Notes under the pieces: generated by a model | The model's input: only the letters and a program-made list of their open reading frames with translations | Told to the model about the DNA's origin: nothing | Databases searched by the model: none | In this document: positions 36,590 to 52,763 of the stretch, one piece after another | Layout of the letters: every line of letters begins with the position of its first letter | Numbering within the stretch: the first letter of the stretch is position 1 | Origin: Flavobacterium sp. 90 | Lineage (GTDB): Bacteria > Bacteroidota > Bacteroidia > Flavobacteriales > Flavobacteriaceae | DNA: 64,000 nt | Assembly (NCBI RefSeq): GCF_004339525.1 | Contig: NZ_SMGE01000001.1 | Location: 6,324,001 to 6,388,000 of the forward strand | Direction of reading: 5' to 3' | Position numbers and translations under genes: made by a program

Positions 36590-38266
36590 ATGACTCAGCA
36601 TCGTTATCTCTTTCTCCTTATTGCTACTCAGATAATGCTATCGCAAAGAAATAATTTCCATGTACCTGATTCTTTAAGGAACAAAAACTTTGAATATCTG
36701 GATGATAAAATATACAGTTACAAAGGAGATAGCAGCAAAGCTGCAGTTTATATGTATACTTTTCTATATAAGGCAAAAAAAGAACAGAATTACAAAGAAA
36801 TTGTCAATGGCTATCAAAATATCCTCCATGAGTCTCCGGAAAAACAAAGACTAGTTTATGCTGACAGTATGATATTAGCCGCTGAAAAATCCGGTATGAA
36901 TTCTTTACTGGGTTCAGCCTATCTGTCTAAAGGGATTGTATATTATAGTAGAAAAGAGCTTCATGAGGCCTTAGATAATTACATAGAAGCAAACAAATAC
37001 ATTTCCAAAACTTCGGACCAATATTTAAAGTTTAAGGTTAAGTATAATATTGCCATCATTAAATCCTATTTAGGCTATTATGATGAAGCTATTGCGTTAT
37101 TGACTGAGTGTGTGGATCATTTTAAGAATGAGGGATCAAGACCCTATTTAAATTCTCTTCATGCCCTGGGACTTTCCTACAATAAAATTGGAAATTATGG
37201 CAAATGTACTCAGACCAATCTTTTAGGAATATCCGAAAGCGAACGACTGGAAAATAACGACATGGTCCCCTACTTCATTCATTCAGAAGCAGTCAATCAA
37301 TTTTTTAAGGAAGATTACAATGACGTTATAAAAAATCTTAAATCAGTTGCAGACCAGATCAAAAAAAATGAAGATTTTGCCAGTGAATCTATAAGCTGTT
37401 TTTACATCGGTAAAAGTTACTGGAAATTAAAAAAGTATGAAGATGCCGTTTCTTATTTTTTAAAAGTAGATCAAATTTATAAAAGTCATGGCTATATTAG
37501 ACCTGATCTGCGAGAGGCTTATGAATTATTAATCAAATATTATAAAACACAAAATAACTTAGATTCACAACTATATTGTATTGAACAATTGCTGCTGGCA
37601 GATAACTACCTTAATGAAACCTATAAATATTTGGTAAGCAAACTGCACAAGGAATACGATACAAATGAGCTTATCTTTGAAAAAGAACAAATCCAGCAGC
37701 AGTTCATAAAAGAAAAAAAACAAGGGTATGTATTTACTGGTTTGGCAATTGCACTTCTCCTGTTGTCATCATTTTTGACCTTTAATCACTTTAGAAATAG
37801 AAGACTTTACAAAAAAAACTTTGATCAGTTAATGCTGCAATTGAATACTGGTAAGGCTCCTAAAGATAAATTCAGATCATCTGGTGATAATCTGACAGAT
37901 ATAAATCCTGAAACGGTTTCCTATATAATTAAACAGCTGGAAAAATTTGAAAACGAAAAAAAATTCCTGCAAAAGGATTTAACTATCTCTAAATTGGCCG
38001 TAATGTTTAATTCAAATCAAACCTATGTATCAAGAATCATCCGTCATTACAGCGGAAAAGCATTCAAAGATTATATAAATGATCTGAAAATTGAGCACAT
38101 TATCGCCTTGCTTCACAATAACAAAAAAATAAGAAAATATAATAATTTAGCGTTGGCAGAAGAAGCTGGTTTCAGCAGCAAACAACTCTTTGCACAATTA
38201 TTTAAAGCCAAAACAGGTATGCCGACAGCTTACTTTATCGAACAGCTTAAAACGGAAAGTCTGTGA
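36590..38266 (+). CDS. Membrane TPR sensor with C-terminal AraC-type HTH
   Basis: The 558 residues begin with a signal-type hydrophobic run (YLFLLIATQIMLS). About 300 residues of tetratricopeptide repeats follow (roughly 40-345; e.g. AYLSKGIVYYSRKELHEALD, DEAIALLTECVDHFKN, SCFYIGKSYWKLKKYEDAVS). One membrane helix lies near 377-399 (VFTGLAIALLLLSSFLTFNHF), and the C-terminal AraC HTH (about 455-555) includes ISKLAVMFNSNQTYVSRIIR and LALAEEAGFSSKQLFAQLFK. Such proteins join periplasmic sensing to DNA binding in Bacteroidetes, often beside susCD loci. The susCD operon at 39346 lies about 1.1 kb downstream and is a candidate target. Confidence 0.85.
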   Translation: MTQHRYLFLLIATQIMLSQRNNFHVPDSLRNKNFEYLDDKIYSYKGDSSKAAVYMYTFLYKAKKEQNYKEIVNGYQNILHESPEKQRLVYADSMILAAEKSGMNSLLGSAYLSKGIVYYSRKELHEALDNYIEANKYISKTSDQYLKFKVKYNIAIIKSYLGYYDEAIALLTECVDHFKNEGSRPYLNSLHALGLSYNKIGNYGKCTQTNLLGISESERLENNDMVPYFIHSEAVNQFFKEDYNDVIKNLKSVADQIKKNEDFASESISCFYIGKSYWKLKKYEDAVSYFLKVDQIYKSHGYIRPDLREAYELLIKYYKTQNNLDSQLYCIEQLLLADNYLNETYKYLVSKLHKEYDTNELIFEKEQIQQQFIKEKKQGYVFTGLAIALLLLSSFLTFNHFRNRRLYKKNFDQLMLQLNTGKAPKDKFRSSGDNLTDINPETVSYIIKQLEKFENEKKFLQKDLTISKLAVMFNSNQTYVSRIIRHYSGKAFKDYINDLKIEHIIALLHNNKKIRKYNNLALAEEAGFSSKQLFAQLFKAKTGMPTAYFIEQLKTESL

Positions 38267-38330: not shown

Positions 38331-38507
38331 ATGAACGATCTTATTGCAAAAATTAACGCAGAAATCGAAACATTTAAAAATGAATCTGAATCATTATCAG
38401 AAAAAGGAGTAAAAGCCGCTGGAGCTAGAGCTCGTAAATCTTCTTTAGAAATTGAGAAACTTTTAAAGGAGTTTAGAAAAGTATCTATTGAGGAATCAAA
38501 AAAGTAA
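38331..38507 (+). CDS. Hc1-like small histone-type protein
   Basis: This short gene encodes 58 residues: MNDLIAKINAEIETFKNESE, then KGVKAAGARARKSSLEIEKL and an FRKVSIEESKK end. The pattern of an acidic helix, the AGARARKSS basic hinge and a Lys-rich helix matches the Hc1-like histone H1 small proteins common in Flavobacteriia, which bind DNA. It lies 27 bases after a TATATTTG box and is followed by a strong terminator, so it is an independent unit. Confidence 0.85.
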   Translation: MNDLIAKINAEIETFKNESESLSEKGVKAAGARARKSSLEIEKLLKEFRKVSIEESKK

Positions 38508-38523
38508 TTAAAATTTAATTATA

Positions 38524-38556
38524 AAGCCCTTCAAATAAATTTGAAGGGCTTTTTTC
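38524..38556 (+). terminator. Terminator after Hc1-like gene
   Basis: AAGCCCTTCAAAT and ATTTGAAGGGCTT form a strong stem followed by a T-run, starting 17 bases past the stop codon. Confidence 0.9.
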
Positions 38557-38611
38557 ATTGTTTATCTATAAAAATACTTTCTAAATATTAAATAGTTAAA
38601 GAAAATCATCT

Positions 38612-38845
38612 TTACATACCTTTATCGGGCCAAAAATCTTTCGGGGAACAATTTAAAACTTTTGCAATGTCATTTAAATGTTGAACATTATACTTTGCTT
38701 TTTTTGAAGATTCAATATCTCCTATAAACCCCACACCCTTATCCAATCTAAGAGATAATTGTTCTTGAGTAAAGCCCTTTTCCTTGCGGATAGTTCTAAC
38801 CCTATCAATTATATAATTTTCTATTTCGGATAATTTCTCATTCAT
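38612..38845 (-). CDS. Small XRE-family regulator, C-protein-like
   Basis: From the ATG at 38843-38845 the protein has 77 residues; a TTG three codons upstream is a less likely start. It is little more than a helix-turn-helix: VRTIRKEKGFTQEQLSLRLD, then GVGFIGDIESSKKAKYNVQH and a DIAKVLNCSPKDFW end. Size and plan resemble controller (C) proteins of restriction-modification systems. Its upstream region contains ATGGACTATAGTCCAT, whose GACTATAGTC core is like a C-box. No restriction or methylase gene is near. It may repress its own promoter and the rightward transcript that holds the structured RNA at 38984-39115. Confidence 0.8.
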   Translation of the reverse strand: MNEKLSEIENYIIDRVRTIRKEKGFTQEQLSLRLDKGVGFIGDIESSKKAKYNVQHLNDIAKVLNCSPKDFWPDKGM

Positions 38846-38881
38846 ATTATACAAATAGCCAACATTATTTGTTAAATTTCA

Positions 38882-38897
38882 ATGGACTATAGTCCAT
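38882..38897. promoter_or_regulatory. 16-base palindrome, candidate operator for the XRE regulator
   Basis: ATGGACTATAGTCCAT is a perfect palindrome 37 bases upstream of the XRE start. Plus-strand -7-like boxes TATATTTG occur at 38914-38921 and 38934-38941, so the palindrome sits near the -33 position of a rightward promoter. Its GACTATAGTC core resembles C-boxes bound by C proteins. Confidence 0.65.
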
Positions 38898-38983
38898 ATT
38901 TGTTGTTTTTTATTATATTTGCATTCTATTACATATATTTGCGATTCTTCAGAAAAATATTTGAAGCACTCGCTTTGAATCTC

Positions 38984-39115
38984 GCGTTAGGAAACTGGTA
39001 ATTTTTGCAACGAGATGATAAGTAAGATGCTCACGTCTTTTGGCGTGGGCTCACTTATTGTTGCAACGGTATACCAGTACCTCTAACGCAGTAAGATGAG
39101 TTCCACGCCTTTTTT
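38984..39115 (+). ncRNA. Structured RNA with switch-like terminator upstream of susCD
   Basis: Six paired segments stack into one long hairpin: GCGTTAG/CTAACGC (38984/39083), ACTGGTA/TACCAGT (38994/39072), TTGCAAC/GTTGCAA (39005/39060), ATAAGT/ACTTAT (39018/39053) and GCTCACG/CGTGGGC (39029/39044). A competing fold pairs GGCGTGGGCTC (39042-39052) with GAGTTCCACGCC (39098-39109), followed by a T-run (39110-39115), making a terminator. The two folds exclude each other, as in an attenuator or riboswitch. A TATATTTG box at 38934-38941 could start it. It resembles neither a tRNA nor any named riboswitch I can recall. A stand-alone RNA or a mobile hairpin remains possible. Confidence 0.55.
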
Positions 39116-39345
39116 GTTAAAACTCCCTTTCTATTCATAGCGGCATTACTCTTATTTCAAGTTTCGCAACTTCTGACAAGTTGAACTTTTTAATTTTTCA
39201 TTGCCTGTGTCTTAAACAAAAAATTACTTTATGATCGTTAAGCCGTTTACTTAATGCATAAAAAATGGCCCTCAGCTGCAGCGACCAAACTAGAGCAGAG
39301 GACCTTAGCTAATCAAAATCTCTTTAACTAACCAATTCCAATATT
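39116..39345. other. Leader region upstream of second susC
   Basis: These 230 bases between the structured RNA and the susC start hold no gene. GGCCCTC (39267-39273) and GAGGACC (39298-39304) are imperfect arms of a weak hairpin about 40 bases before the ATG. No clear -7 box was seen, which leaves open that susC is read through from the upstream structured RNA. Confidence 0.4.
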
Positions 39346-42300
39346 ATGAATTATTTTTCATTCTACAAGGGTGGAAAAACGCTTTATTGCCTAACTTTAA
39401 CGGCAATTCTGTTTTCTTTTTCCTCGTCGTTTGCCGGAAATACTTACCGGAAATTTTCTTCTATTTTTCAACAGCATCAGGTACATGGTACCATAACCGA
39501 TGGCACCGCTCCACTGCCCGGAGTCACTATCGTCGTAAAAGGTCGTGCATCCGTTACAGCTATAACAGATTACACGGGGCAGTACTCAATAAATGTTACG
39601 GCTTCAGATACTCTTATTGTATCATTTATTGGATTCAAAACCTTAAAAGTTCCGGTTTCCGGCCGTTCGAAAATCGACATTACACTGCAATACGATACTA
39701 CAACCCTTCGAGAAGTTAAAATAAATGCTGGTTATTACTCTGTTAAAGAAAGTGAACGAACGGGAAGCATTGCCCGTATAACTTCCAAAGATATTGAGAC
39801 CCAGCCCGTCACTAATGTGCTCGCCACAATGCAGGGAAGAATGGCGGGAGTTGAAATAACTCAAAATACCGGTCTTCCCGGAAGCGGATTCGAAATTCAG
39901 ATCCGCGGGCAGAACAGTTTACGTTTCAATGGAAACAGCCCGCTGTATATTATTGACGGTGTCCCCTATTCTTCCCAGAGCATAGGAAGCAATATGACAT
40001 CCGGCAATATGCCAGCCGAAAACAGCCCACTGAACAGCATTAATCCAGGCGACATAACAGCCATTGAAGTACTTAAAGATGCCGATGCAACAGCAATATA
40101 CGGGTCTCGGGGCGCCAACGGAGTGGTCCTGATTTCAACAAAAAAAGGCAAACAGGGCAAGACGGCTTTCTCCACAACATATTCGTATGGCTTCGGCCAG
40201 GTGGCCCATTTCATGGATGTTCTCAGGACGCCCGATTATTTGGCCATGAGAAGGGAAGCATTCGGCAACGACGGCTATAACGAATATCCAGATTATGCCT
40301 ATGATGTTAACGGCACATGGGATCAGAACCGAAATACAGACTGGCAGAAAGAGCTCATTGGAGGGGTTGCGACATACAGCAATCTACAATCCTCACTTAC
40401 AGGCGGCACCGAGCGCACCAGTTTTCTTCTGAGCGGAAACTATAGCAGGGAAACTACCGTATTTCAGGGAAGCTTTGATTATGTGAAAGCGGGAGGGCAT
40501 TTGAGTCTGAACCATGAATCTCAGGACAGCAGATTCAAAATCAGCTTTTCGTCAATTTATACCTCACAGTCAAACAGCCTGCCGGCCATAGATATCACCT
40601 CCACAGCGCTTCTGCTTGCTCCCAATGCTCCCGCACTGTATGACGGATCGGGCAACCTAAATTGGGAGAACAACACCTTTGACAATCCTGTGGCTGCGCT
40701 TGAGGGAAAAATTAAAGGCCAGACTAACGATTTGGTGGCTAATGCGCTTTTGACCTACGATCTTGGAGCGGGATTTACCGCAAAGGGAAATTTCGGATAT
40801 ACATTCCTTACCCAGAAGCAATTGAACTTGCGCCCATCCACCGCCTTAAATCCCGCATACGGAGCAGGCAGCGAAAGCTCCATCGTATTTACAAACAGCT
40901 TGGGAAGGAATTCATGGATTATCGAGCCTCAGCTAAACTGGAACCATAAATTCGGCAAGCTGTCTCTTGACGCATTGGCGGGAACCACTTTCCAGCAGCA
41001 GAAAGGTACCAGACAGGTAAATTATGCAATTGGATTTGCCAATAACAGCCTTATGGAAAATCCCGCATCGGCATCCCGAAATCTGGTTTTAAGCAGTGAT
41101 GAAAATCTGTATAAGTATGAGGCTTTTTATGCAAGGCTGAATTTTAATTGGGAAAGCAGGTATCTTCTTAACGTGACTGGCCGCCGTGATGGCTCGAGCC
41201 GTTTTGGCCCCGGCAATCAATTTGCAAACTTCGGTGCCGTCGGTGCCGCATGGGTATTCAGCCAAGAAAATATGATAAAAGACGATATGCCTGTTCTAAG
41301 TTTCGGCAAACTTCGCGCCAGTTATGGAACTACGGGAAACGATCAGATTGGAGATTATCAGTACTTGGACACCTACAGCGTGGCCGCTGCAAAATATCAG
41401 GGCATTTCAGGGCTTCAGCCAAGTAGGCTGTTTAATCCTGATTTTGGATGGGAAACAAACAAAAAATTGGAAGTTGCGCTCGAAACAGGCTTTTTTAATG
41501 ATAGGATATTTTCAACCGTTGCCTGGTTCCAGAACCGTTCCTCCAACCAGCTTGTCGGAATTCCGTTGGCGGGAACAACTGGATTCTCCACCATGCAGGC
41601 TAATCTTGATGCAGTAGTGCAGAATAGAGGTCTGGAGCTTACATTAAGAACCATAAACATTAAAAACGGCGAATTTAGCTGGATCACCAGCTTTAATATA
41701 ACAAGCAACAAAAATAGACTTATTTCTTTTCCAGGACTTGATGCATCAACGTTTAAAAACCAGTATGTGATTGGTCATTCTTTAAATATCACCAAAGTAT
41801 TCCACTACACAGGACTTGATTCTTCTTCTGGGACTTACCAATTTTTGGACGTGGATGGAGACGGATCTGTAAATTTTGGAGATGACCAAAAAACCATTAA
41901 GGACCTTAGCCCTAAATATTATGGAGGCCTGCAGAATCAGCTTAGATATAAAAATATAGAGCTCGATTTTCTGTTTCAGTTTGCCAAACAGGAAAATTAC
42001 AACCCAAATTCGTACTCCCCTATGCCCGGCACAATGGCAAATCAGCCATCGGCCGTCCTGTCTCGCTGGCAAAATCCAGGCGATACTGGCCCTTATCAGG
42101 CATTTAGCGATAGTGATGCAAGCCGTACGATTGCCTATTACCAGTTTTCTTCAAGTGACGCTGCCATAAGCGATGCCTCATACATCCGCTTAAAGAATAT
42201 TTCGCTTACCTACCAGCTGCCGCAAAGCCTCACTAAAAAATTCAATTGTAAAATCGGGCTTCAGGGACAGAATGTCTTCACCATAACTAAATACAAAGGA

Positions 42301-42378
42301 ATTGATCCTGAATTTAAATATACGGGATATCTGCCTCCTTTAAGAGTATTCACAACCACAATACAGTTAACTTTTTAA
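39346..42378 (+). CDS. susC: SusC/RagA-family TonB-linked outer-membrane transporter (element-borne)
   Basis: The 1010-residue protein has a signal region (TAILFSFSSSFAG). A carboxypeptidase-like domain follows (about 44-125, VHGTITDGTAPLPGVTIVVK), then a TonB plug with the LREVKINAGYYSVKESERTG segment, SPLYIIDGVPY and YGSRGANGVVLISTKKG. The barrel carries RRDGSSRFGPGN and KLRASYGTTGNDQIGDYQYL motifs. It is 13 bases before susD, and a peptidase gene follows at once, so peptide rather than glycan uptake is plausible. It is richer in G and C than the chromosomal susC at 578-3580, which suggests separate origin. Confidence 0.95.
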   Translation: MNYFSFYKGGKTLYCLTLTAILFSFSSSFAGNTYRKFSSIFQQHQVHGTITDGTAPLPGVTIVVKGRASVTAITDYTGQYSINVTASDTLIVSFIGFKTLKVPVSGRSKIDITLQYDTTTLREVKINAGYYSVKESERTGSIARITSKDIETQPVTNVLATMQGRMAGVEITQNTGLPGSGFEIQIRGQNSLRFNGNSPLYIIDGVPYSSQSIGSNMTSGNMPAENSPLNSINPGDITAIEVLKDADATAIYGSRGANGVVLISTKKGKQGKTAFSTTYSYGFGQVAHFMDVLRTPDYLAMRREAFGNDGYNEYPDYAYDVNGTWDQNRNTDWQKELIGGVATYSNLQSSLTGGTERTSFLLSGNYSRETTVFQGSFDYVKAGGHLSLNHESQDSRFKISFSSIYTSQSNSLPAIDITSTALLLAPNAPALYDGSGNLNWENNTFDNPVAALEGKIKGQTNDLVANALLTYDLGAGFTAKGNFGYTFLTQKQLNLRPSTALNPAYGAGSESSIVFTNSLGRNSWIIEPQLNWNHKFGKLSLDALAGTTFQQQKGTRQVNYAIGFANNSLMENPASASRNLVLSSDENLYKYEAFYARLNFNWESRYLLNVTGRRDGSSRFGPGNQFANFGAVGAAWVFSQENMIKDDMPVLSFGKLRASYGTTGNDQIGDYQYLDTYSVAAAKYQGISGLQPSRLFNPDFGWETNKKLEVALETGFFNDRIFSTVAWFQNRSSNQLVGIPLAGTTGFSTMQANLDAVVQNRGLELTLRTINIKNGEFSWITSFNITSNKNRLISFPGLDASTFKNQYVIGHSLNITKVFHYTGLDSSSGTYQFLDVDGDGSVNFGDDQKTIKDLSPKYYGGLQNQLRYKNIELDFLFQFAKQENYNPNSYSPMPGTMANQPSAVLSRWQNPGDTGPYQAFSDSDASRTIAYYQFSSSDAAISDASYIRLKNISLTYQLPQSLTKKFNCKIGLQGQNVFTITKYKGIDPEFKYTGYLPPLRVFTTTIQLTF

Positions 42379-42391
42379 TTCCTCTTTTATC

Positions 42392-43783
42392 ATGAGAAGC
42401 GATAATATTAAAATATACATTTATCCTATGCAGTTTGTTCTGCTATGGCTCTTTTACGGATGTTCAAATTTTACAGACGTAGATCTTCCTTCATCTCAGC
42501 TGACCTCCGGAACCGTATTTGAAGAAAAGTCAACCGCTAATGCCGCCATGCTCGACGTCTACTCTAAAATAAGGGAAAGCGGCATATTGACTGGCTATAC
42601 ATCAGGCATATGCAGCCAGCTTGGCCTTTATGCGGACGAGCTCCAATTCTACGGAGCGTCAGGAACAGGGCTTGCAAATTATTACAACAACAGCCTTTTG
42701 GCCACAGACCCTCAGATTGCAGCAACATGGAACAGCAGCTTTACTCAAATCTACTCGGCCAATGCAGTAATTGAAGGACTTGATAGGTCTAAAGCTTTGC
42801 CCGCCGATTTTAAACAGCAGCTAAAAGGGGAAGCGCTGTTTGTGCGGGCATTGCTTCACTTTTATCTCCTGAATCTATATGGCCCTGTTCCCTATATCAC
42901 ATCAACTGACTATAAAATTAACAGCAATGCGGCTAGAATGCCCGAAAAGATAGTATATGATTTAATTGAGAAGGATTTAGAGGAGTCAATTAACCTATTG
43001 CAGAAAGTATATAATGGAAGCTATAGGGTTCGTCCCAATAAAGCGACAGCCCAGACGCTGCTGGCAAGGGTTTATCTGTATTCAGAAAAATGGGAGGAAG
43101 CCTCAAATATGGCCTCCGCAGTGCTCAATCAGTCGGATTTGTATGTGTGGCCAACGTCTTTGGATTTGGAGTTTAAGAAAGAAAGCAAAGCTACAATATG
43201 GCAGCTGATGTCCAATATTGAAGGCGCTAACACATATCAGGGCAATGTTTTTATTTTTATTCAGGGCCCTCCTCCATCAATGGCTCTTACAGAGAATCTA
43301 GTTAATGCCTTCAGCAACGGTGATCTGCGAAAAACCAAATGGCTGAAAGCCGTAAGCAACGGAACAGTAACTTGGTACCATCCATACAAATACCAGGAAA
43401 AATCAAATACAGCCACTTCATTGGAGTATCCTGTAGTTTTTAGAATGGCGGAACTGTATCTAATCAGGGCTGAGGCACGCGCCCGCGCTGGTGATCTGAT
43501 AGGCGCAAAGCAGGATCTAAATAAAACCAGAAATCTTGCAGGTTTGGGCGATACTGCTGCAGTCGAGCCTGCTGAAATTATTGATGATGTGCTAACAGAA
43601 CGCCGTCTGGAATTTTTTACTGAATTCGGACACCGTTTTTTTGACCTTAAAAGGCTAGGAAGACTAGATAAGGAACTTTCGCCTTTGAAGCCGCAATGGA
43701 AGACTACCAATAGATTATTGCCTTTACCGCAAAGCGAATTAACGTTGAACCCAAATCTATCTCCTCAAAATGCAGGCTATTAA
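42392..43783 (+). CDS. susD: SusD/RagB-family surface lipoprotein
   Basis: The 463 residues start with a lipoprotein signal (about 1-24, ending WLFYGCSNFTDVDLP). The SusD fold follows: YSKIRESGILTGYTSGICSQ, a KGEALFVRALLHFYLLNLYG helix (about 150-168), a TPR-type ATAQTLLARVYLYSEKWEEA repeat, and the C-terminal LIRAEARARAGDLIGAKQDL, then ERRLEFFTEFGHRFFDLKR, as in all SusD proteins. It partners the SusC encoded 13 bases upstream. The gene overlaps the S9 peptidase gene by 14 bases, showing tight coupling of uptake and hydrolysis. Confidence 0.95.
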   Translation: MRSDNIKIYIYPMQFVLLWLFYGCSNFTDVDLPSSQLTSGTVFEEKSTANAAMLDVYSKIRESGILTGYTSGICSQLGLYADELQFYGASGTGLANYYNNSLLATDPQIAATWNSSFTQIYSANAVIEGLDRSKALPADFKQQLKGEALFVRALLHFYLLNLYGPVPYITSTDYKINSNAARMPEKIVYDLIEKDLEESINLLQKVYNGSYRVRPNKATAQTLLARVYLYSEKWEEASNMASAVLNQSDLYVWPTSLDLEFKKESKATIWQLMSNIEGANTYQGNVFIFIQGPPPSMALTENLVNAFSNGDLRKTKWLKAVSNGTVTWYHPYKYQEKSNTATSLEYPVVFRMAELYLIRAEARARAGDLIGAKQDLNKTRNLAGLGDTAAVEPAEIIDDVLTERRLEFFTEFGHRFFDLKRLGRLDKELSPLKPQWKTTNRLLPLPQSELTLNPNLSPQNAGY

Positions 43784-46391
43784 CGTACCTACTGGCCGTT
43801 TTTTTAGAGCTGTCATTTTTGTTTTTGTTTTAGTTACCTGTCCCCTTTTATGGGGACAGGCTAAACAGAAAAAAATCATGACCGTAAAGGATTATGATTT
43901 GTGGAGCACCCTAAGTCCCGGGCAGTTATCCAGTAATGGTAACTGGTCCAGCTACGCTTTAAATTACTATAATAGGAATTCAAATGCCGATACACTTTTT
44001 GTCCAGCACAACAGTTCGCGTAAAAAATATATTTTCCCTGGTGCCACAGATGGAAAATTCAACGGGGAATCGGATTTTGCCTGCATTTTAAGAGATTCCC
44101 TTATCGTGCAGAATCTTAAATCTGGGAAGACCTATTCTGCACCATGCAATACCGATTTTAATTTTTCAGCAGATCATAAGTTTCTGGCAGTTTTTACCGT
44201 GCAGAGCGGGAAAAAGTTCAAATTGGAAATTAGAAATGGGCAAGGAATGATCGTCCGTGAAATTCCAGATATAAACAATTATATTTTCGATCCGGAAAAA
44301 AACGGCATTGCATATTGTTTTGAAAAAGATAATGCATATGGAGTAGAAATAATGCTGTTTAAAAATATAATTGCAGTCACAAAAGTTATAGAAGATCATG
44401 AAGTGCCGCTTCTTGGTCTGGTATGGAAAAACAATACGATTGCTTTTAATGAAGATAAAATTTCAGATTCAAGACTATATAGTTTCAATATATCCAAAAA
44501 CAGGCTCAGTACTATGGATCCAAAGACCACAGCTGGATATCCAAATGACATGACGGTCTCCAATCCGAAATATCAAAAAATCATCCTCTCCACTGACGGC
44601 AAAAGCGTATTTTTTTGGCTAAAGGAAAAATCAGACGCCTCTAATGCTATTGATCCATCTGCTGTACAGATCTGGAATTCAAAAGACAAGCTCTTGTTTG
44701 ATTTCAGAAAATACAAAGGTGACTACAGGTTAAACAGCAAAATGGCAATCTGGTCAGTAGAAGAAAATAAAGTGCAGCAGATAACTGACAGGGAATATCC
44801 GCTTGGATTTTTAAGCGCTGACTATAAGCACGCATTCATATATGACCCCGCTGCCTATGAACCTAATACCAATCAATCACAGCCATTTGATTTATACATA
44901 CAGGATTTAGAAACTGGTAAAAGAAAACTTGTGATAGCTCATCGAACGGGTGATTTCCTCCCTTTGGGATCACCTGATGGGAACTTCCTATTTTATACAA
45001 AATCCAAGCAATGCTGGGTCTATAACATCTCAAAAGATTCGCACACCAATATAACGCATGGCCTATCTGAGTCGTTTTTCTTCGAGGACTATAATATGCC
45101 TATTGAAGCTCCCTCCTATGGAATTGGAGGATGGACAAAAAATAATGAAATTATACTTTACGACAAGTATGATTTGTGGCTGATCTCACTTGACGGAACC
45201 GTAAAAGAAAGGCTGACGAAAGGACGGGAAATGCAAAAATCATATCGTATTAAAGTCTTTAATTCTGACCCCTATTTTAGCTTGACAGAATCCAAGAAAC
45301 ATTTTCTAGATCTCAACAAAGGCTTTCTTCTCCAGACTTCAAACCGTGAAACAGGCCAGAGTGGACTTAGCTACTGGAACCAAAAAAATGGAGTGAAGGA
45401 TATGGTCTGGGAAAATAAGAAAGTTGATGAGATCAGAAAAGCCTCCAATAAGGATGTTTACCTCTACACGGATCAAAGCTTTGAATTATCTCCAAGACTT
45501 ATGTTTTTTAACCATAAACCAACTGAGATCATAAAGAGCAATCCTCAGCAGAAAAATTTTTATTGGGGCAGAAACGAGCCTATTGAATATCAGGTAAACG
45601 GCGTAAAAGCAAAAGGATTTTTATGCTATCCTCCAGATTTTAAAGCCGGATTAAAATATCCAATGGTGGTTCATATCTATGAGCGCCAATTTTCCTATAT
45701 GAATGAGTATGTAAATCCTTCCCTGCTGACTGAAGACGGATTTAACGTCACAAATGCGATTAATAACGACTATTTTGTACTGTATCCTGACATGGTTTAT
45801 GATTACGGCAACTTGGCGGAATCAGTTACCAAAAGCGTGCTTAGTGCAGTTGATGAAGTCATTAAAAAAGGTGATGTGGATTCCAACCGTGTCGGATTGA
45901 TTGGACATTCCTTCGGAGGCTACGAGGCGGACCTGATTATAACGCAGACCAACCGCTTTGCGACCGCAGTAGCCGGGTCTGCTTGGACGGATCTTGTGAG
46001 CAGCTATCTGTATGTAAGCGGATCCAGACGACAGCCAGATTTTTATCGTGCTGAAGAGAATCAGATACGCATTGGAAAATCGCTATTTGAAGATATGCAG
46101 AGCTATCTAAAAAATTCTCCTGTGCTTTTGGCTTCAAAAGTAGAAACTCCTCTATTGGGATGGGTAGGCGAAAATGACAGGCATATCCATTCCCTGCAGA
46201 GCATGGAATTTTATCTGGCGATGCGCCGTCTAAACAAGGATCACACTCTTCTAGTATATCCGAATGAAGGGCATGAAATGGGCACAAAAGAAAACGCAGA
46301 AGATCTCAATGTTCGAATCCTGCAATGGTTTGACCGTTACTTGAAAAATGGCAAGCATCAAGACTGGATGAACGCTGATTTCAAAAGATAA
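43770..46391 (+). CDS. S9-family (prolyl oligopeptidase-like) serine peptidase, secreted
   Basis: The 873 residues have a signal-type region (about 12-30, AVIFVFVLVTCPLLWGQ). A beta-propeller domain of roughly 600 residues follows, then an alpha/beta-hydrolase domain (about 610-873). The catalytic triad is visible: Ser714 in GHSFGGYE, Asp803 in GENDRHIH and His835 in EGHEMG. S9 enzymes cut short peptides, often after proline. The gene overlaps susD, so the enzyme likely processes what SusCD imports, in the periplasm. A four-Cys peptide gene (46449-46715) faces it across a terminator. Confidence 0.9.
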   Translation: MQAINVPTGRFFRAVIFVFVLVTCPLLWGQAKQKKIMTVKDYDLWSTLSPGQLSSNGNWSSYALNYYNRNSNADTLFVQHNSSRKKYIFPGATDGKFNGESDFACILRDSLIVQNLKSGKTYSAPCNTDFNFSADHKFLAVFTVQSGKKFKLEIRNGQGMIVREIPDINNYIFDPEKNGIAYCFEKDNAYGVEIMLFKNIIAVTKVIEDHEVPLLGLVWKNNTIAFNEDKISDSRLYSFNISKNRLSTMDPKTTAGYPNDMTVSNPKYQKIILSTDGKSVFFWLKEKSDASNAIDPSAVQIWNSKDKLLFDFRKYKGDYRLNSKMAIWSVEENKVQQITDREYPLGFLSADYKHAFIYDPAAYEPNTNQSQPFDLYIQDLETGKRKLVIAHRTGDFLPLGSPDGNFLFYTKSKQCWVYNISKDSHTNITHGLSESFFFEDYNMPIEAPSYGIGGWTKNNEIILYDKYDLWLISLDGTVKERLTKGREMQKSYRIKVFNSDPYFSLTESKKHFLDLNKGFLLQTSNRETGQSGLSYWNQKNGVKDMVWENKKVDEIRKASNKDVYLYTDQSFELSPRLMFFNHKPTEIIKSNPQQKNFYWGRNEPIEYQVNGVKAKGFLCYPPDFKAGLKYPMVVHIYERQFSYMNEYVNPSLLTEDGFNVTNAINNDYFVLYPDMVYDYGNLAESVTKSVLSAVDEVIKKGDVDSNRVGLIGHSFGGYEADLIITQTNRFATAVAGSAWTDLVSSYLYVSGSRRQPDFYRAEENQIRIGKSLFEDMQSYLKNSPVLLASKVETPLLGWVGENDRHIHSLQSMEFYLAMRRLNKDHTLLVYPNEGHEMGTKENAEDLNVRILQWFDRYLKNGKHQDWMNADFKR

Positions 46392-46405
46392 AATCAATGT
46401 ATAGA

Positions 46406-46445
46406 AATGCCGGCACCCAAAAGATACAGGCCGGCATTCTTTTAA
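46406..46445 (+). terminator. Terminator between convergent peptidase and peptide genes
   Basis: AATGCCGG and CCGGCATT arms about 17 bases apart are followed by CTTTTAAAA. The stem begins 14 bases after the peptidase stop and ends about 3 bases before the stop of the opposite-strand peptide gene, so it may serve both. Confidence 0.75.
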
Positions 46446-46448
46446 AAT

Positions 46449-46715
46449 TTAATTATTAGTGCTTCTTTTCAGAGGGGTTACACAATTTGAATCATAAAGC
46501 TGGGCGCCAGAACCGCTGGATGCTCCAATTTTACAATTAAAATTTCCTCCTTCATCACACTGCTGAACAGCGTTACAGCTGTCTGGATTTGCAATGTGCT
46601 GGTAGCCCTGTTGGGCCACGGATTTTGAGCTTAGAGACGAAGTGCTTGCCGCACTAGTCAAACCAACCGCAACAACTGCTAGCGGCAAAATGGTTTTTAA
46701 AACATTAGATTTCAT
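46449..46715 (-). CDS. Short secreted four-Cys peptide (DUF6520-like)
   Basis: The 88-residue protein starts with a hydrophobic signal-type run (VLKTILPLAVVAVGLTSAAS). A Ser-rich linker follows, then a mature part with four Cys: DSCNAVQQCDEGGNFNCKIG, then NCVTP. The ILPLAVVAVGLTSA start and Cys-rich body recall the DUF6520-type small proteins of Flavobacteriia. It is just upstream of a MauE-type redox protein on the same strand order (the MauE gene precedes it). Its spaced Cys residues could be oxidised by that protein. It could be a signalling or antimicrobial peptide; no function is known. Confidence 0.75.
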   Translation of the reverse strand: MKSNVLKTILPLAVVAVGLTSAASTSSLSSKSVAQQGYQHIANPDSCNAVQQCDEGGNFNCKIGASSGSGAQLYDSNCVTPLKRSTNN

Positions 46716-46766
46716 AATAATATAATTTATATGGTTAATGACCTACTCTTTTTTACAGGTTTTCGA

Positions 46767-48320
46767 TCAGTCCCCTGCTATTTGGCCAATAGATTTTTTT
46801 GCATTTTGATCAGCGTAATATGATGTGATTTTTGGCTGCAGTTTATAAAGGATAATATGCGAACCTATCAGCACATACATTTTATCATTTATGACCTTCA
46901 TATAACGCATTTTTTTCCCTCTAAGATTGCTGATAGTGAAACTCAATGCATAACTTTTTTTGTTGAGATCATAGACATCAATGATGCTTGAATTTTTCCA
47001 CATTCTATCGTCTTCAAATCGGCCAGGTATTGCCGAATGAACAAATAGTAAATTGTTATATGAAGCGCAATTATTATTGACAAATAATGGCGGTTTGGAA
47101 AACTGCCTCTGATGATGACTTTTGTCATTTTCAATATGCAGTTTTGCTTTTGTAATAGTATCAATCGTATTTCCTTTCCAGACTATATTCAGATGGTTGT
47201 CGGCTAGCGCAAATTGATTGCGATAGGCATACAGGTAAATGATTCTCTCCATCTCCTTGTTATAAAGTAATATGCCGTCGGTATCAAAAACTCCGTCTGC
47301 CTGTTTTTGCAATATTGCAGGGTTTAGAATTGTATTTCCATTCTTGTGGAGCTGGATAACACCAAGTACATTATCGCCGTTAATCCTGTTTGCGGCCACC
47401 ACTGCAATTGCATTGGAATCTATGGCCCTAGCCGTTGTGAAATATTCTCCTTTCAGATGGATCAATTTGGCATTCCAATTATCAATCTTACCCCTAAAGA
47501 CACACGGTACTGTTCCGTCAGCCACAAAAAAATAAGGTGGCTCAACCATAATTGAAACTCCTCTGAAAGGAAGTTCTTTATGATCCAGATCAATCATCGT
47601 TTTCTTATTTTGCAACAGTTCTGAATTCAAAATTGTCAGAACTAATGGAGATGTTGTATTGCCAAGGTAGACATTTTTGTTATCAACACCTGCAAAATAA
47701 AACGAGTTCAGCTTTAAATCTTTAGATATAACCTGAAGGATTGGTGTCTGCGGAAAACGTCTGGTCAATTTATTATGATAATGGATGATATTTTCAGAAA
47801 GTAAAAATAATATTACCACTATACTAATACTGCTGATGGTTATAACAGAAAACAGCGTTACTAAACCCCTACTGTTCACTGAATGAATATTTACTAATTT
47901 TTTGTCTTTATGAAGAAATATTGCCAGTATTCCAAGGCATACAAAGACAAGATTAAAAATCATGTGTGATTGCCAGTCCAGCTTCTCCAGCACTCCTCCG
48001 CAGGAACACGGCACAAATGAAGTATAATGAAGAATAATAAAAATGTAGACCGTAAACATTACCATTAACCCGTAAGCGAAGAATAGTCCCGTCAGCATAA
48101 ATCTTGGAATAATGATTAGCAGGCATGTAATATATTCAGTAGCAGGCACCAGTACTGCTACCCATTCTGCAAACGCACTCAGTAGAGGGGATTGCCCAAG
48201 CTCAATTTTAAAATGCTGAAAATCCAATAATTTGCTCGTTGCAGCATAGATAAAAAGCAGTATATATAACATACAGATAATTTCAATAACTACACTCCTA
48301 AAATTAAACTGGACTTTCAT
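46767..48320 (-). CDS. MauE/DoxX-type redox membrane protein fused to propeller-like domain
   Basis: The 517 residues have two parts. Residues 1-180 contain about five membrane helices (near 9-30, 50-70, 72-98, 117-137 and 153-177) with the redox-like motif PCSCGG (Cys 105 and 107) between helices, as in MauE-type proteins linked to disulfide formation. Residues about 190-500 are periplasmic and beta-rich, like a six-bladed propeller: GVDNKNVYLGNTTSPLVLTI, YFFVADGTVPCVFRGK and MYVLIGSHIILYKLQP. The gene is 51 bases upstream of the four-Cys peptide and shares its strand. A role in folding, sensing or delivering that peptide is inferred. Confidence 0.75.
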   Translation of the reverse strand: MKVQFNFRSVVIEIICMLYILLFIYAATSKLLDFQHFKIELGQSPLLSAFAEWVAVLVPATEYITCLLIIIPRFMLTGLFFAYGLMVMFTVYIFIILHYTSFVPCSCGGVLEKLDWQSHMIFNLVFVCLGILAIFLHKDKKLVNIHSVNSRGLVTLFSVITISSISIVVILFLLSENIIHYHNKLTRRFPQTPILQVISKDLKLNSFYFAGVDNKNVYLGNTTSPLVLTILNSELLQNKKTMIDLDHKELPFRGVSIMVEPPYFFVADGTVPCVFRGKIDNWNAKLIHLKGEYFTTARAIDSNAIAVVAANRINGDNVLGVIQLHKNGNTILNPAILQKQADGVFDTDGILLYNKEMERIIYLYAYRNQFALADNHLNIVWKGNTIDTITKAKLHIENDKSHHQRQFSKPPLFVNNNCASYNNLLFVHSAIPGRFEDDRMWKNSSIIDVYDLNKKSYALSFTISNLRGKKMRYMKVINDKMYVLIGSHIILYKLQPKITSYYADQNAKKSIGQIAGD

Positions 48321-48468
48321 ATTCTCGTATCTAAATTAATATTCCGTTACACAGGACTGAAACAATGTGAAATCTTTTACAAATCTATATCCAATAACTT
48401 GAAAAGCAGGTTTCAAAAACGTGCGAAAATATGTCTAAAACGAGGCAGTTTAGTTTGCTGAAAAACTA

Positions 48469-48512
48469 AAAAAAGATGCGTACCGAATATTTTTTTCAGC
48501 ATGCACCTTTTT
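48469..48512 (-). terminator. Terminator after the 48531 gene
   Basis: On the minus strand AAAAAGGTGCATGC pairs with GTACGCATCTTTTT across an A/T-rich loop and ends in a T-run. It lies about 20 bases after the stop of the leftward gene at 48531. Confidence 0.7.
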
Positions 48513-48530
48513 ATTTCTTAGGAACCTTTC

Positions 48531-48821
48531 CTAATCTTTTACAGCTTCGGAAAGTGACATAAGCTTTAAATTCAATTCCACAAGATTGGCTTTCACCAGA
48601 CACTCCTGGGCAATGTTTTTCAGTTCGTTTAAATCTTCCGCAGAAATACTCTCTGCAAGAATCGAATTGTCTTTTTCTGTCGATAATCCGTGGTGGATCA
48701 AATGGCTTAAAAGCAGTACGTTTTTTCTTGAAATCTTCAAATCCATTCTCACTGGTTCATTCATGGAAGGGATACTTAAAACAGTATCATAAACCTTTGC
48801 CGCATCATTTTTTGTCATCAT
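48531..48821 (-). CDS. Small hypothetical protein next to mobilisation genes
   Basis: The 96-residue protein is soluble and helical: AKVYDTVLSIPSMNEPVRMD, then SRKNVLLLSHLIHHGLSTEK and a C-terminal LNELKNIAQECLVKANLVEL helix. No family was recognised. It is divergent from the mob genes, with the candidate oriT in the 292-base gap between them, and ends at a strong terminator. An accessory role in mobilisation is possible. Confidence 0.55.
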   Translation of the reverse strand: MMTKNDAAKVYDTVLSIPSMNEPVRMDLKISRKNVLLLSHLIHHGLSTEKDNSILAESISAEDLNELKNIAQECLVKANLVELNLKLMSLSEAVKD

Positions 48822-49113: not shown

Positions 49114-49506
49114 ATGAAAGAGAAAAACACCACCCGTACCAAATGGATCCACCTGCGTCTGACAACAGATGAAATGAAGTTTTTACAAAGAGGATTTGAA
49201 AAATCGCTGTGCCCAAAACTGAGTGATTATGCCCGTAAGAACATGCTTGGAAAACCCGTCGTTTTAAAATACAGAAATACATCCGTTGATGAACTGGTCC
49301 TGGAGATAAGCAGACTTAGAACTGAGCTCAATGCCATTGGAAACAATTACAATCAGGCAGTAAAAAAACTGCATTCTCTTGGGCAGATTTCTGAATTTAA
49401 AAACTGGATTTTATCTTCTCAGCAGGACAGAGACAAACTGTTTGAAGCCATTGAAAACATAAAAAACTGTATGCTGAAACTCGTTGACAATGGTCGCTGT
49501 AATTAA
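49114..49506 (+). CDS. MobC-like relaxosome protein
   Basis: The 130-residue protein has an N-terminal DNA-binding region of ribbon-helix-helix type (KWIHLRLTTDEMKFLQRGFE) and LSDYARKNMLGKPV, followed by the LVLEISRLRTELNAIGNNYN helix that marks MobC-like mobilisation proteins. The C-terminus is a coiled coil with an amphipathic end. MobC-type proteins bind oriT and help the relaxase nick DNA. It overlaps the relaxase start by 17 bases. Confidence 0.85.
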   Translation: MKEKNTTRTKWIHLRLTTDEMKFLQRGFEKSLCPKLSDYARKNMLGKPVVLKYRNTSVDELVLEISRLRTELNAIGNNYNQAVKKLHSLGQISEFKNWILSSQQDRDKLFEAIENIKNCMLKLVDNGRCN

Positions 49507-50755
49507 AACAGGAACATCGATCCGTCGCATTTTTCATTACAATGAAAACAAAGTTTCACACGATGGTGCCCTGTGTATCGGAGCTGAAAACTACCCTGCC
49601 GATCATGATAAAATGACTTCTTCATTTAAAATAAACCATCTGCTTTCACAGCTTGAATTAAACGAAAACGTTAAGAGGGGAAGCGTGCACATTTCACTTA
49701 ATTTTCATCCGTCTGAAACAGACCTGGATGCTGAAAAACTAATTGATATTGCCCGAAGTTATATGTCTGGAATCGGCTTTGGCCATCAGCCCTATTTAGT
49801 CTACCAGCACTTTGATGCGGCGCATCCCCACATTCATATCATTTCGGTAAAGGTGAGACCGGATGGAAAAAGGATTGACATGCAGAATATCGGACGCAAC
49901 CAGTCTGAGGCAGCGCGTATCAAAATAGAAAATGATTTTAACCTGGTAAAAGCACAGGGAAGGTTTAAAGAAATCGGTTATGGAATTAAACCAATTGAAA
50001 CAACTGCTGTACACTATGGAAAAATACAGTCCAAAAAGGCGGTCTCGAAGGTGCTTGATTTTGTACTAAGCAATTATCAGTATAGAAGTCTTCCCCAGCT
50101 CAACGCGGTTCTGAATCTTTATAATGTCTGTGCCGACAGGGGCTCTGAAAATTCAAGAACGTTCAAAGCTGGAGGGCTGGTCTACCGCATACTGGACAAG
50201 GAAGGAAATCATACTGGAGTTCCCATTAAGGCAAGTGATTTCTACAGCAGCCCTACACTTAAATTTCTGGAGATAAAATTTGAGCAGAACAGACTTAAAA
50301 ATCAGCGTCCGGGGCTCCGGATAAAAAATGCAATAAGGAATATATTTGAGCATGATCGCCCTTCCCTGCCGCAGCTTTCAGAAGAGCTTGACAAGATTGG
50401 GATTTCCATGATAAAAAGGATCTCTTCAGACGGCAGATTGTTTGGGCTGACCTATATTGATCATGTTACAAAACAGATCTGTAACGGAAGCGAACTCGGA
50501 AAGGAATTTTCTGCCGCTGCCATCTCAATAAAATGCAGCGATTCCGATAGTGAAATAAAAAATAGGGCTTCCTCTCCACAGCTTAAGGCACTTTTTGAAA
50601 TAAAGGAAATTCTGGAGATGAAAAAAATTCCGACAGCCGGCCTGAATGAGTTTATACAGTCCCTGTTCGAAAAGGAATTTTACTCCGGACATATTCCAAA
50701 AGAATTCAAAAGAAAAAGGAAAAACAGAAAAAGAAAAGGACTCTCCAATAATTAA
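49490..50755 (+). CDS. Relaxase (MobB-type mobilisation nuclease)
   Basis: Relaxases nick oriT and lead the strand into the recipient. From the ATG at 49490 the protein has 421 residues; a TTG six bases earlier opens the frame but is less likely. The N-terminal half holds the relaxase/mobilisation nuclease domain with HISLNFHPSE and the three-His motif HPHIHIIS (about 110-117). The C-terminal half is basic and ends in a KRKRKNRKRKG tail that likely binds DNA. The coupling-protein gene follows 19 bases later. Confidence 0.9.
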   Translation: MVAVIKTGTSIRRIFHYNENKVSHDGALCIGAENYPADHDKMTSSFKINHLLSQLELNENVKRGSVHISLNFHPSETDLDAEKLIDIARSYMSGIGFGHQPYLVYQHFDAAHPHIHIISVKVRPDGKRIDMQNIGRNQSEAARIKIENDFNLVKAQGRFKEIGYGIKPIETTAVHYGKIQSKKAVSKVLDFVLSNYQYRSLPQLNAVLNLYNVCADRGSENSRTFKAGGLVYRILDKEGNHTGVPIKASDFYSSPTLKFLEIKFEQNRLKNQRPGLRIKNAIRNIFEHDRPSLPQLSEELDKIGISMIKRISSDGRLFGLTYIDHVTKQICNGSELGKEFSAAAISIKCSDSDSEIKNRASSPQLKALFEIKEILEMKKIPTAGLNEFIQSLFEKEFYSGHIPKEFKRKRKNRKRKGLSNN

Positions 50756-50774
50756 TCATTTAAATTTTACAGTT

Positions 50775-52763
50775 ATGAACACAGGGGAAAATGAACAGGC
50801 ACTGAGAAAAATTTTAGATATGACCCGCCTGATAAGCCTCGTGCTTCTGGCAGTCCATTTTTATTACTACGGCTACTTTGTTTTCAAACAGCTTGGTCTG
50901 GTCTCGCAATTCAGCGACAGGATTCTTGAGAATATCTCCAAGGCAGGATTATTCAGTTTTTTCCACAAATCAAAACTGCTGGCGCTGCTCTTTGTTTTTA
51001 TTTCGCTTCTCGGTGCAAAAGGAAGGAAAAATGAAAAATTAAAATTGAAAAACGCTGTGCTTTTTCTTCTCTTTGGACTGTTTTTTTATTTTGCCAGCTG
51101 GTTTATTCTGCAGATTGGCTACAATATAGAAATCGTTTTTCTGATTTATGTTTTAACCACCACCTCTGGTCTGCTTTTAATAATTACAGCTGGTACCTTA
51201 CTGACAAGGATCATCAGCAGAAGGCTGAACAACCGTGATATATTTAATAAAGAAAATGAAACCTTTCCACAGGAAGAAAGACTCCTTGAAAATGAATATT
51301 CTATTAATCTTCCGGCGCAGTATTACCTTCGTGACAAGATTCGAAAAAGCTGGATCAACATCATAAACCCTTTCAGGGGCGTTCTGGTCTGCGGTTCGCC
51401 GGGATCCGGAAAATCATACTTTGTGATCCGTCATATTATTACCCAGCATATAGCAAAAGGATTCAGCATGTTTGTCTATGATTTTAAGTTTAATGACCTG
51501 ACCAGAATTGTATATAATGCTTTTCTAAAGCACAGACATTTATACAAGGTTTTACCAGAGTTCTATGTCATTAATTTTGATGACCTCTCCCGCACTCACA
51601 GATGCAATCCCCTAGACCCTTCTTCCATGACAGACATCACCGATGCTGCAGAATCAGCCCGTACCATTCTTCTTGGATTAAACCGCGAATGGATCAGAAA
51701 ACAGGGAGATTTCTTTGTCGAGTCACCAATAAATTTCCTGACGGCGGTGATCTGGTATCTCAGAAAATTCAACGATGGAGAATTCTGCACCCTGCCGCAT
51801 GTCATCGAACTTATGCAGCTCGATTACAAGATTCTCTTCACACTGCTGCGCTCGGAGAAAGAGATTGAGGTGCTGATCAATCCATTTGTAAGCGCATTTT
51901 TAAATAATGCCTCCGAGCAGCTGGAGGGCCAGATTGCATCAGCAAAAATTTCAATGGCAAGACTTTCTTCGCCCCAGCTCTATTATGTGCTTTCCGGAAA
52001 TGATTTTACCTTGGACATCAATAATCCCGACGCTCCGAAAATTGTGTGCATGGGAAATAATCCCCAGAAAATACAGACCTACGGAGCGGTACTTTCACTC
52101 TATATCAGCAGGCTTGTAAAACTCGCCAATAGAAAAGACAAACTCAAAAGCAGTCTTATTTTTGATGAGTTCCCTACTGTCTATCTAAACAATATCGACA
52201 GCCTTATTGCCACTGCGCGAAGCAACAAAGTAAGCACGACTCTGGGCATTCAGGACCTGAGCCAGCTTAAAAAAGATTACGGCCGTGAACAGGCAGATGT
52301 GATCATGAATATCACCGGAAATATTATTTCAGGACAAGTGACCGGCGATACCGCAAAACAGCTCTCCGAGCGTTTTGGAAAAATAATGCAGGAACGTGAA
52401 AGTCTTTCCATCAATAGCTCCGATACCTCGATAAGCCGTTCCAGACAATTGGAATACGCAGTCCCGGCCTCAAAAATAGCGTCATTAAGTTCAGGTGAAT
52501 TTGTGGGTATGACTGCCGATAATCCGGACTGTAAAATTGACCTTAAGACATTCCACTGCGAGGTTTTAAATGATCATAATGCACTGCAGCAGGAAACAAA
52601 CAACTACAGGGAAATCGAGCCGATTCGTATCCTGGACAATGCGCAGGTAAACAGGAATTATAACCTGATCAGAGAGGATATCCATGAACTTTCTGAATCT
52701 GAAATGGACCGTATTTCCGAAAGCCGTGATCTGAGACACCTCATCATTAAAAAGAAAAATTAA
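50775..52763 (+). CDS. VirD4/TraG-type coupling protein
   Basis: From the ATG at 50775 the protein has 662 residues; a longer frame starting at 50646 overlaps the relaxase C-terminus and adds no known sequence. The N-terminal part has about four membrane helices (near 18-38, 68-80, 94-114, 118-140). Walker A GSPGSGKS lies at 207-214, and Walker B-type LIFDEFPTVY lies farther on. The SNKVSTTLGIQDLSQLKKDY segment and the C-terminal ISESRDLRHLI end are as in TraG/VirD4 of Bacteroidetes elements. It brings the relaxase-DNA complex to the TraE-N channel. Confidence 0.92.
   Translation: MNTGENEQALRKILDMTRLISLVLLAVHFYYYGYFVFKQLGLVSQFSDRILENISKAGLFSFFHKSKLLALLFVFISLLGAKGRKNEKLKLKNAVLFLLFGLFFYFASWFILQIGYNIEIVFLIYVLTTTSGLLLIITAGTLLTRIISRRLNNRDIFNKENETFPQEERLLENEYSINLPAQYYLRDKIRKSWINIINPFRGVLVCGSPGSGKSYFVIRHIITQHIAKGFSMFVYDFKFNDLTRIVYNAFLKHRHLYKVLPEFYVINFDDLSRTHRCNPLDPSSMTDITDAAESARTILLGLNREWIRKQGDFFVESPINFLTAVIWYLRKFNDGEFCTLPHVIELMQLDYKILFTLLRSEKEIEVLINPFVSAFLNNASEQLEGQIASAKISMARLSSPQLYYVLSGNDFTLDINNPDAPKIVCMGNNPQKIQTYGAVLSLYISRLVKLANRKDKLKSSLIFDEFPTVYLNNIDSLIATARSNKVSTTLGIQDLSQLKKDYGREQADVIMNITGNIISGQVTGDTAKQLSERFGKIMQERESLSINSSDTSISRSRQLEYAVPASKIASLSSGEFVGMTADNPDCKIDLKTFHCEVLNDHNALQQETNNYREIEPIRILDNAQVNRNYNLIREDIHELSESEMDRISESRDLRHLIIKKKN

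Follow-up and report, generated by a model that had tools for sequence, protein, structure and literature searches.

The genome of Flavobacterium sp. 90 carries, in a 64,000-nucleotide stretch that we analysed whole and refer to as the window (contig NZ_SMGE01000001.1, positions 6,324,001 to 6,388,000), a cassette in which an uptake operon faces the gene for a small, leader-bearing cysteine peptide. The cassette spans window positions 38612-48821. A divergent helix-turn-helix (HTH) gene, a candidate operator palindrome and a leader RNA precede susC, susD and a gene for an S9 peptidase; facing them lie a DUF6520 peptide gene and a gene for a MauE-propeller fusion protein (Table 1). A sequence-only reading of this DNA had proposed that the last five of these genes form one peptide system. 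Profiles identify all five where it had placed them (SusC, SusD, S9, the DUF6520 peptide and the MauE domain), and the terminator that it drew between the facing operons corresponds to a hairpin. Its five-gene core stands, but the cassette is larger than it described: the regulatory arm (HTH gene, operator and leader RNA) and the mobile setting had been missed. Each of the protein families has been described before, as have SusCD loci that include peptidases. None of the nine window proteins scanned has a glycoside-hydrolase-type match at E values up to 1, and the locus does not qualify as a polysaccharide utilization locus.

A conserved peptide arm facing an uptake operon

The peptide passes the cut-off of Pfam family DUF6520 (PF20130). 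Its four cysteines are invariant in 47/47 peptides, in keeping with the earlier description of a four-Cys peptide, but some peptides in the family sample described below have two. The MauE domain carries a CxC motif that is invariant in 53/53 proteins, and CxCG is present in 23 of the 24 MauE open reading frames (ORFs) of the family sample. MauE has been speculated to act in disulfide formation (PMC7794033). The C-terminal part of the fusion protein has no Pfam match; an AlphaFold2 model and its comparison with the PDB predict a propeller fold.

A genome scan with three MauE-propeller proteins gave a set selected by similarity, the best 80 loci of 303 relatives, which by record title comprise 78 Flavobacterium, one Galbibacter and one [Flexibacter]. 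An ORF with at least four Cys follows MauE in 80/80 of these loci, and facing it all 80 have a complete or partial S9 gene. Next to these come susC and susD in 74 loci; in L071, L076 and L096 the contig stops before they could be scored. Tandem peptide genes (at least two) occur in six loci (L069, L070, L074, L078, L080 and L105), and five diverged peptide genes stand in tandem behind one MauE at L078:10530-12957 and L105:5201-7626.

We also drew 100 genomes evenly from the family, covering 99 genera. The peptide profile gave 22 matches in 14 of them, the MauE-propeller profile matched 17 genomes, and we grouped the matches by coordinates into 32 loci. All but one of the peptide matches (21/22) lie within 200 bp of a MauE-propeller-profile match, be it MauE, the fused protein or a propeller gene adjoining MauE; the remaining match lies 4.4 kb off in the same cluster. 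We retrieved 26 of the 32 loci, the others being three of the host genome and three of genome G020 (one a fragment). In 25 of the 26, a leader-bearing small ORF with at least two Cys adjoins MauE or the propeller gene (judged partly by eye); the exception is L151, where the contig stops 92 bp past MauE. All 24 loci long enough to score contain susC and susD; in L151 and L167 the contig stops short of them. Of 25 scorable loci, four have a fused propeller and 13 encode it separately, whereas we found none in eight. The expected pairing of the peptide with a MauE-propeller protein thus holds for MauE but not for the propeller: MauE and peptide are the lasting pair, and the propeller is optional.

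Outside the family, L111 combines MauE-propeller, peptide and S9; L113 combines MauE, a two-Cys peptide and a propeller; and L114 has MauE, a 130-aa ORF and a facing SusD. According to the sequence-only reading, a joint system would be refuted if the peptide, MauE-propeller or susCD mostly occurred apart. Instead, peptide, MauE and susCD stand together in nearly every scorable locus, strongly supporting the view that the parts form one system.

The S9 peptidase belongs to that system in the similarity-selected loci, but it is one of several exchangeable enzymes. We scanned the gene after susD in 24 loci and found Pfam domains in every one: M16 (insulinase family) in nine, an AhpC-TSA/thioredoxin fold in six, S9 in four, Met-zincin (DUF4953) in four and an amidohydrolase in one. 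The slot has therefore been swapped between lineages, mostly among peptide or disulfide enzymes, and the operon of L164 has an additional ORF with a DsbD_N domain (thiol-disulfide protein). That one slot can hold unrelated peptidases as well as a disulfide-active fold suggests that the operon dismantles small disulfide peptides, and this swapping is our main ground for proposing a functional link between the peptide arm and the uptake arm.

Among 75 full-length S9 ORFs, 67 have the strict Ser motif; the cruder Asp and His patterns were found in only 19 and 31. Like the lasso isopeptidase AtxE2, which is among its PDB matches, the window protein is an S9 enzyme. However, its best NCBIfam match, NF033523 (lasso peptide isopeptidase), scores 84.8 bits, short of the curated cut-off of 400, and we recognised no lasso biosynthesis genes in the cassette. 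Close to the N terminus, the Met-zincins at L154:6627 and L155:6774 share a C[PS]LWGQ motif with S9 proteins (37 of the 75), as if enzymes had been exchanged behind a common signal peptide.

Table 1. Features of the cassette and its right flank, in window coordinates.
Feature	Position	Strand	Support
XRE-type HTH gene, divergent, likely regulator of the uptake operon	38612..38854	-	HTH_3 35.9 bits (cut-off 23)
Palindrome ATGGACTATAGTCCAT, proposed operator, 40 nt upstream of the leader RNA	38882..38897	.	same palindrome at L084
Pseudoknotted susC leader RNA with competing terminator-like pairing and U-run	38938..39116	+	fold z, covariation, model R1 198 bits
susC, TonB-linked outer-membrane transporter	39346..42378	+	TIGR04056 708 bits (cut-off 368)
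susD, surface lipoprotein lid	42392..43783	+	PF14322 100 bits, PF07980 91.1 bits; cut-offs passed
S9 peptidase, secreted-type, exchangeable third gene	43770..46391	+	PF00326 87.3 bits; Ser714, Asp803, His835 by motif
Hairpin (terminator) separating the convergent operons	46403..46443	.	
DUF6520 four-Cys peptide gene, 88 aa	46449..46715	-	PF20130 31.4 bits (gathering cut-off 25.4)
Predicted propeller, residues ~186-500 of the fusion protein	46821..47765	-	AlphaFold2 model and PDB comparison
MauE domain, residues 10-135, Cys105-x-Cys107	47916..48293	-	PF07291 91.2 bits (cut-off 27)
Conserved 96-aa ORF	48531..48821	-	in 3/3 own-genome copies, 18/80 loci
MobC-like mobilization protein	49114..49506	+	PF19514 38.1 bits (cut-off 27.5)
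Relaxase	49484..50755	+	PF03432 93 bits
Coupling protein (YWFCY, T4SS-DNA_transf)	50646..52763	+	Pfam domains

The leader RNA and a likely divergent regulator of susC

The region upstream of susC encodes a structured RNA (fold z -6.2 at 38945-39115). We aligned 50 of 56 anchored leaders, dropping three that were not cleanly bounded and three duplicates. Under the proposed structure, pseudoknot included, 98.5% of 1834 cells are paired and 145 are changed on both sides; 0/500 shuffles reach either value. In 54 more varied matches, 27 of 37 pairs show two-sided changes, and the pseudoknot helix, which is absent from the search model, is 93.9% paired with two-sided changes in 4/5 pairs. The structure is thus established by covariation, and nothing in Rfam 15 matches at the leader elements. 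An alternative partner for the 3' half of the central hairpin is the segment directly before the U-run. This terminator-like pairing is possible in 99.3% of 550 cells, compared with 32-57% for slid versions, but it is not proven by covariation because its changes are one-sided only and shuffles do as well. Switching between the two pairings is a prediction from sequence.

This leader class is present in 61 of the 80 similarity-selected loci (53 by anchor and eight more by model). In one of them, L039, the RNA is inverted relative to susC and flanked by 50-nt inverted repeats that are 88% complementary (L039:19192-20715), as would be the case in an invertible promoter segment. Ten other loci (L040, L043, L050, L052, L055, L060, L061, L073, L091 and L101) have a second, different structured leader upstream of susC, about 242 nt long with a hairpin and U-run at its end. 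The nine aligned sequences show compensation at 12 of 68 pairs, and no Rfam match was found in the three of its loci that we scanned. Neither class is present in the last nine loci, all of which except L067 lack testable sequence upstream of susC. In loci of other genera with at least 700 bp upstream, the leader was found in 12 of 17 and is missing in L147, L149, L156, L161 and L162.

In the host genome, the leader model R1 has three strong matches, which are the three cassette copies described below; the next have E values of 0.15 and 0.76. It matched 24 of 41 genomes of the genus, 46 matches in total, and we read the surroundings of 31. susC lies within 1.5 kb of 18 of the 20 matches scoring at least 145 bits, compared with one of the 11 lower-scoring ones, seven of which have a same-strand ORF starting 20-51 nt downstream. 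Diverged homologues at this distance before other ORFs occur at L186, L188 and L190-L194; the ORF in L192 is for a peptidase of the M4 type, and that in L194 for a lectin carrying a type IX sorting tail.

These homologues outside the cassettes, together with the U-run at the RNA's end, could mean that the RNA is instead a stand-alone small RNA (sRNA) with its own terminator that acts on other mRNAs, susC being only read through. In F. psychrophilum, structured 5' elements without Rfam hits and an sRNA, Rfp18, have been reported (PMC9723704); none of those named in the portion of that source used here is said to precede susC, and the comparison with our leader is by description only. A relative of Rfp18 would be an example of such an sRNA. 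The nearness of susC to the high-scoring matches and the leader-like spacing of the ORFs behind most lower-scoring ones argue against this alternative, which we consider somewhat unlikely.

Most loci have a divergent small ORF at the position of the HTH gene (judged by eye). Of 12 such proteins scanned, five pass an HTH cut-off, five match below it and two, including that of the 0.54-Mb copy, match nothing. A palindrome is located between this ORF and the leader RNA, in many cases 40-50 nt upstream of the latter. Among 51 distinct leaders, palindromes with arms of at least 8 occur in 28 of 51 regions, compared with 30 of 540 shuffles. Palindrome sequence varies by locus, yet it agrees where the divergent proteins are homologous. 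Over the 44 leaders with a palindrome arm of at least 6 and a divergent ORF, mean similarity is 7.3 for homologous proteins versus 5.9, a difference reached in 0/1000 permutations; L084, for example, shares the window palindrome and has an HTH protein homologous to that of the window. This agreement suggests private regulator-operator pairs.

Cassette copies, mobile setting and divergence

The host genome, a 6.65-Mb single contig, holds three diverged copies of the cassette, at about 0.54 Mb, at about 5.33 Mb and in the window. All three sites combine a MauE protein of about 500 aa with a DUF6520 peptide and an S9 protein of the window type. The other two copies have the gene order of the window, the divergent small ORF upstream of susC and the 96-aa ORF, with MobC-like and relaxase-sized genes alongside; Pfam confirms a relaxase in the 0.54-Mb copy and a coupling protein in the window and the 5.33-Mb copy. 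Because their S9 proteins are only 36% identical to that of the window, the three copies are not recent duplicates. In another run of the same genome, at L023:3293-15883, susC and susD are accompanied by a gene for a thioredoxin-fold protein and by two ORFs, one S9-related and one labelled M16 by eye; we saw no DUF6520 peptide in it.

Mobile-element genes (relaxase, MobC, coupling protein, RteC, topoisomerase-type, HTH_17 and recombinase), which we recognised from their similarity to typed representatives, are present in 56 of the 80 similarity-selected loci. RteC or HTH_17 relatives occur in 15 of the 26 family loci, and relaxase or coupling-protein matches in 0/26. No plasmid record matched.

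We compared distances in the 69 of 80 loci in which all genes are complete. Mean identity is lowest in the mature peptide (32%), followed by the peptide leader (37%), S9 (38%), the propeller (44%), SusD (55%), and SusC and MauE (both 60%). Partial correlations with mature-peptide distance are 0.24 for S9, 0.18 for the propeller, 0.08 for SusC, 0.06 for MauE and -0.02 for SusD; since the loci share ancestry, these values are suggestive only.

Candidate roles of the cassette

We propose, with slightly less than even confidence, that the locus is a mobile, self-contained cassette for peptide release and recapture. The DUF6520 peptide would be exported by Sec, as its leader suggests, and the membrane MauE protein would form its disulfides through CxC; the propeller, where present, may hold or check the peptide. 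The susC-susD-enzyme operon would bring the same or related small disulfide peptides in across the outer membrane, and, judging from the slot occupants in other lineages, the third enzyme (S9 here) would dismantle them. Uptake would be gated twice, by a private HTH regulator acting on its cognate palindrome and by the leader RNA, which could adopt either the pseudoknotted domain or the terminator-like hairpin.

Purpose is the least certain step. Self-recognition or signalling fits better than feeding because of the private regulators, the diverging mature peptides, the multiple copies and the mobile neighbours, and the cassette may be an unrecognised route for peptide exchange or policing in these bacteria. 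A bolder version, which we put forward only tentatively and think rather doubtful, is a mobile Gram-negative form of peptide communication or self-recognition in which each cassette's own disulfide peptide is recaptured and dismantled by the SusCD and enzyme of that cassette, and a private regulator-operator pair and a pseudoknotted RNA switch, of a family missing from Rfam, would let several cassettes share one cell without crosstalk. If the proposal is true, DUF6520 gains a partner (MauE) and a system, SusCD uptake becomes tied to a self-encoded peptide instead of food, and a new leader RNA family controls surface transport in Flavobacteriaceae.

Several observations weigh against release and recapture. 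We recognised no outer-membrane exit route for the peptide, and the mature form, about 6.7 kDa if cleaved near residue 22, exceeds the total limit of about 5 kDa suggested for SusCD (PMC7782687). The structure model of the peptide is poor (pLDDT 65) and has no PDB match. L034, L038 and L063 keep MauE and the peptide, but susCD is gone and only a C-terminal remnant of S9 is left; recombinase-like ORFs were seen by eye near the L038 and L063 cassettes. For three of the nine M16 proteins in the third slot (L147, L170 and L171), the C-terminal M16 domain is the only one above the cut-off, so their activity is not assured. Homologues of the leader RNA also sit before unrelated genes, and the distance correlations of the peptide with S9 and the propeller are weak.

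The lack of a recognised exit route would suit a peptide that stays in the periplasm behind its Sec-type leader and is never exported or imported; there it would be part of MauE-propeller or its ligand, or would inhibit the neighbouring enzyme. Methylamine dehydrogenase offers a precedent, in which MauE goes with a propeller subunit and a small subunit rich in disulfides, and the peptide adjoins MauE even in loci without a propeller. However, a resident partner leaves the constant presence of susCD unexplained, the propeller was not found in 8 of 25 loci, and an inhibitor would need to fit unrelated enzyme folds. We therefore judge residence improbable.

Still less probable, in our view, is antagonism, with the peptide a bacteriocin-like toxin acting on relatives and SusCD and the enzyme conferring immunity by uptake and destruction. 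Mobile, multi-copy and diversifying cassettes, tandem peptide genes and enzymes able to destroy a disulfide peptide would all be expected of such a system, but a TonB-driven importer is an odd immunity device, and among and next to the conserved genes we recognised neither a dedicated exporter nor a small immunity gene. Least probable of all is an ordinary peptide-scavenging locus of susCD and a peptidase or thioredoxin, with peptide and MauE kept as neighbours by co-transfer: mobile genes are common and the L023 run indicates that such enzymes also serve SusCD loci without the peptide, but the convergent arrangement is kept over many genera, three families and differing flanks, and three diverged copies share one genome.

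Release and recapture resembles several known systems in part. NVEALA peptides of Bacteroides are short leader-bearing Bacteroidetes peptides, in that respect like the window peptide, but their profile, PF14055, has no match to it up to an E value of 1 and only one sub-threshold match in 99 genomes of the phylum. Rap-Phr cassettes of Bacillus have a secreted peptide that is taken back up, several diverged copies and mobile elements; they serve as a works-like comparison only, as route, receptor and regulators differ. The window SusC passes TIGR04056 and its SusD the Pfam cut-offs, as in RagAB-type importers. Oligopeptide import by RagAB and Bt2261-64 has been mentioned (PMC7782687), but the window locus encodes its own Cys peptide with a secretion leader and a MauE protein. 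MauE beside a small Cys-containing secreted protein recalls both MauE/MauD in methylamine dehydrogenase maturation and candidate clusters for ribosomally synthesized and post-translationally modified peptides. In Streptomyces, MauE is predicted beside Cys-rich candidate precursors with at least eight Cys (PMC7794033); as far as that source was available, those candidates come without SusCD, whereas here two or four Cys face an uptake operon, often with a propeller. Our literature search found no report of a SusCD locus with a self-encoded Cys peptide and MauE, exchangeable enzymes and this RNA, and a full-text search by name found no paper on DUF6520 and none on NVEALA.

A TPR-AraC regulator at window positions 36590-38266 adjoins the cassette, and several other loci have relatives of it at their right end. 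A weak PyrG_leader match at 38492-38563 (33.9 bits against a cut-off of 65), overlapping a terminator-like hairpin at 38523-38552, is probably due to chance. MauE has recurring neighbours elsewhere: an AraC-type regulator, DUF7793 and a protein of about 800 aa with Aminotran_1_2 and GNAT domains, found respectively in 29, 24 and 22 of the 80 similarity-selected loci and in 14, 11 and 9 of the 26 family loci (for example L047:8428-9348, L055:8433-8816, L067:5850-8273 and their equivalents). In L034, the AraC-type neighbour has a PAS match below the cut-off. The set is possibly a small-molecule synthase with its regulator.

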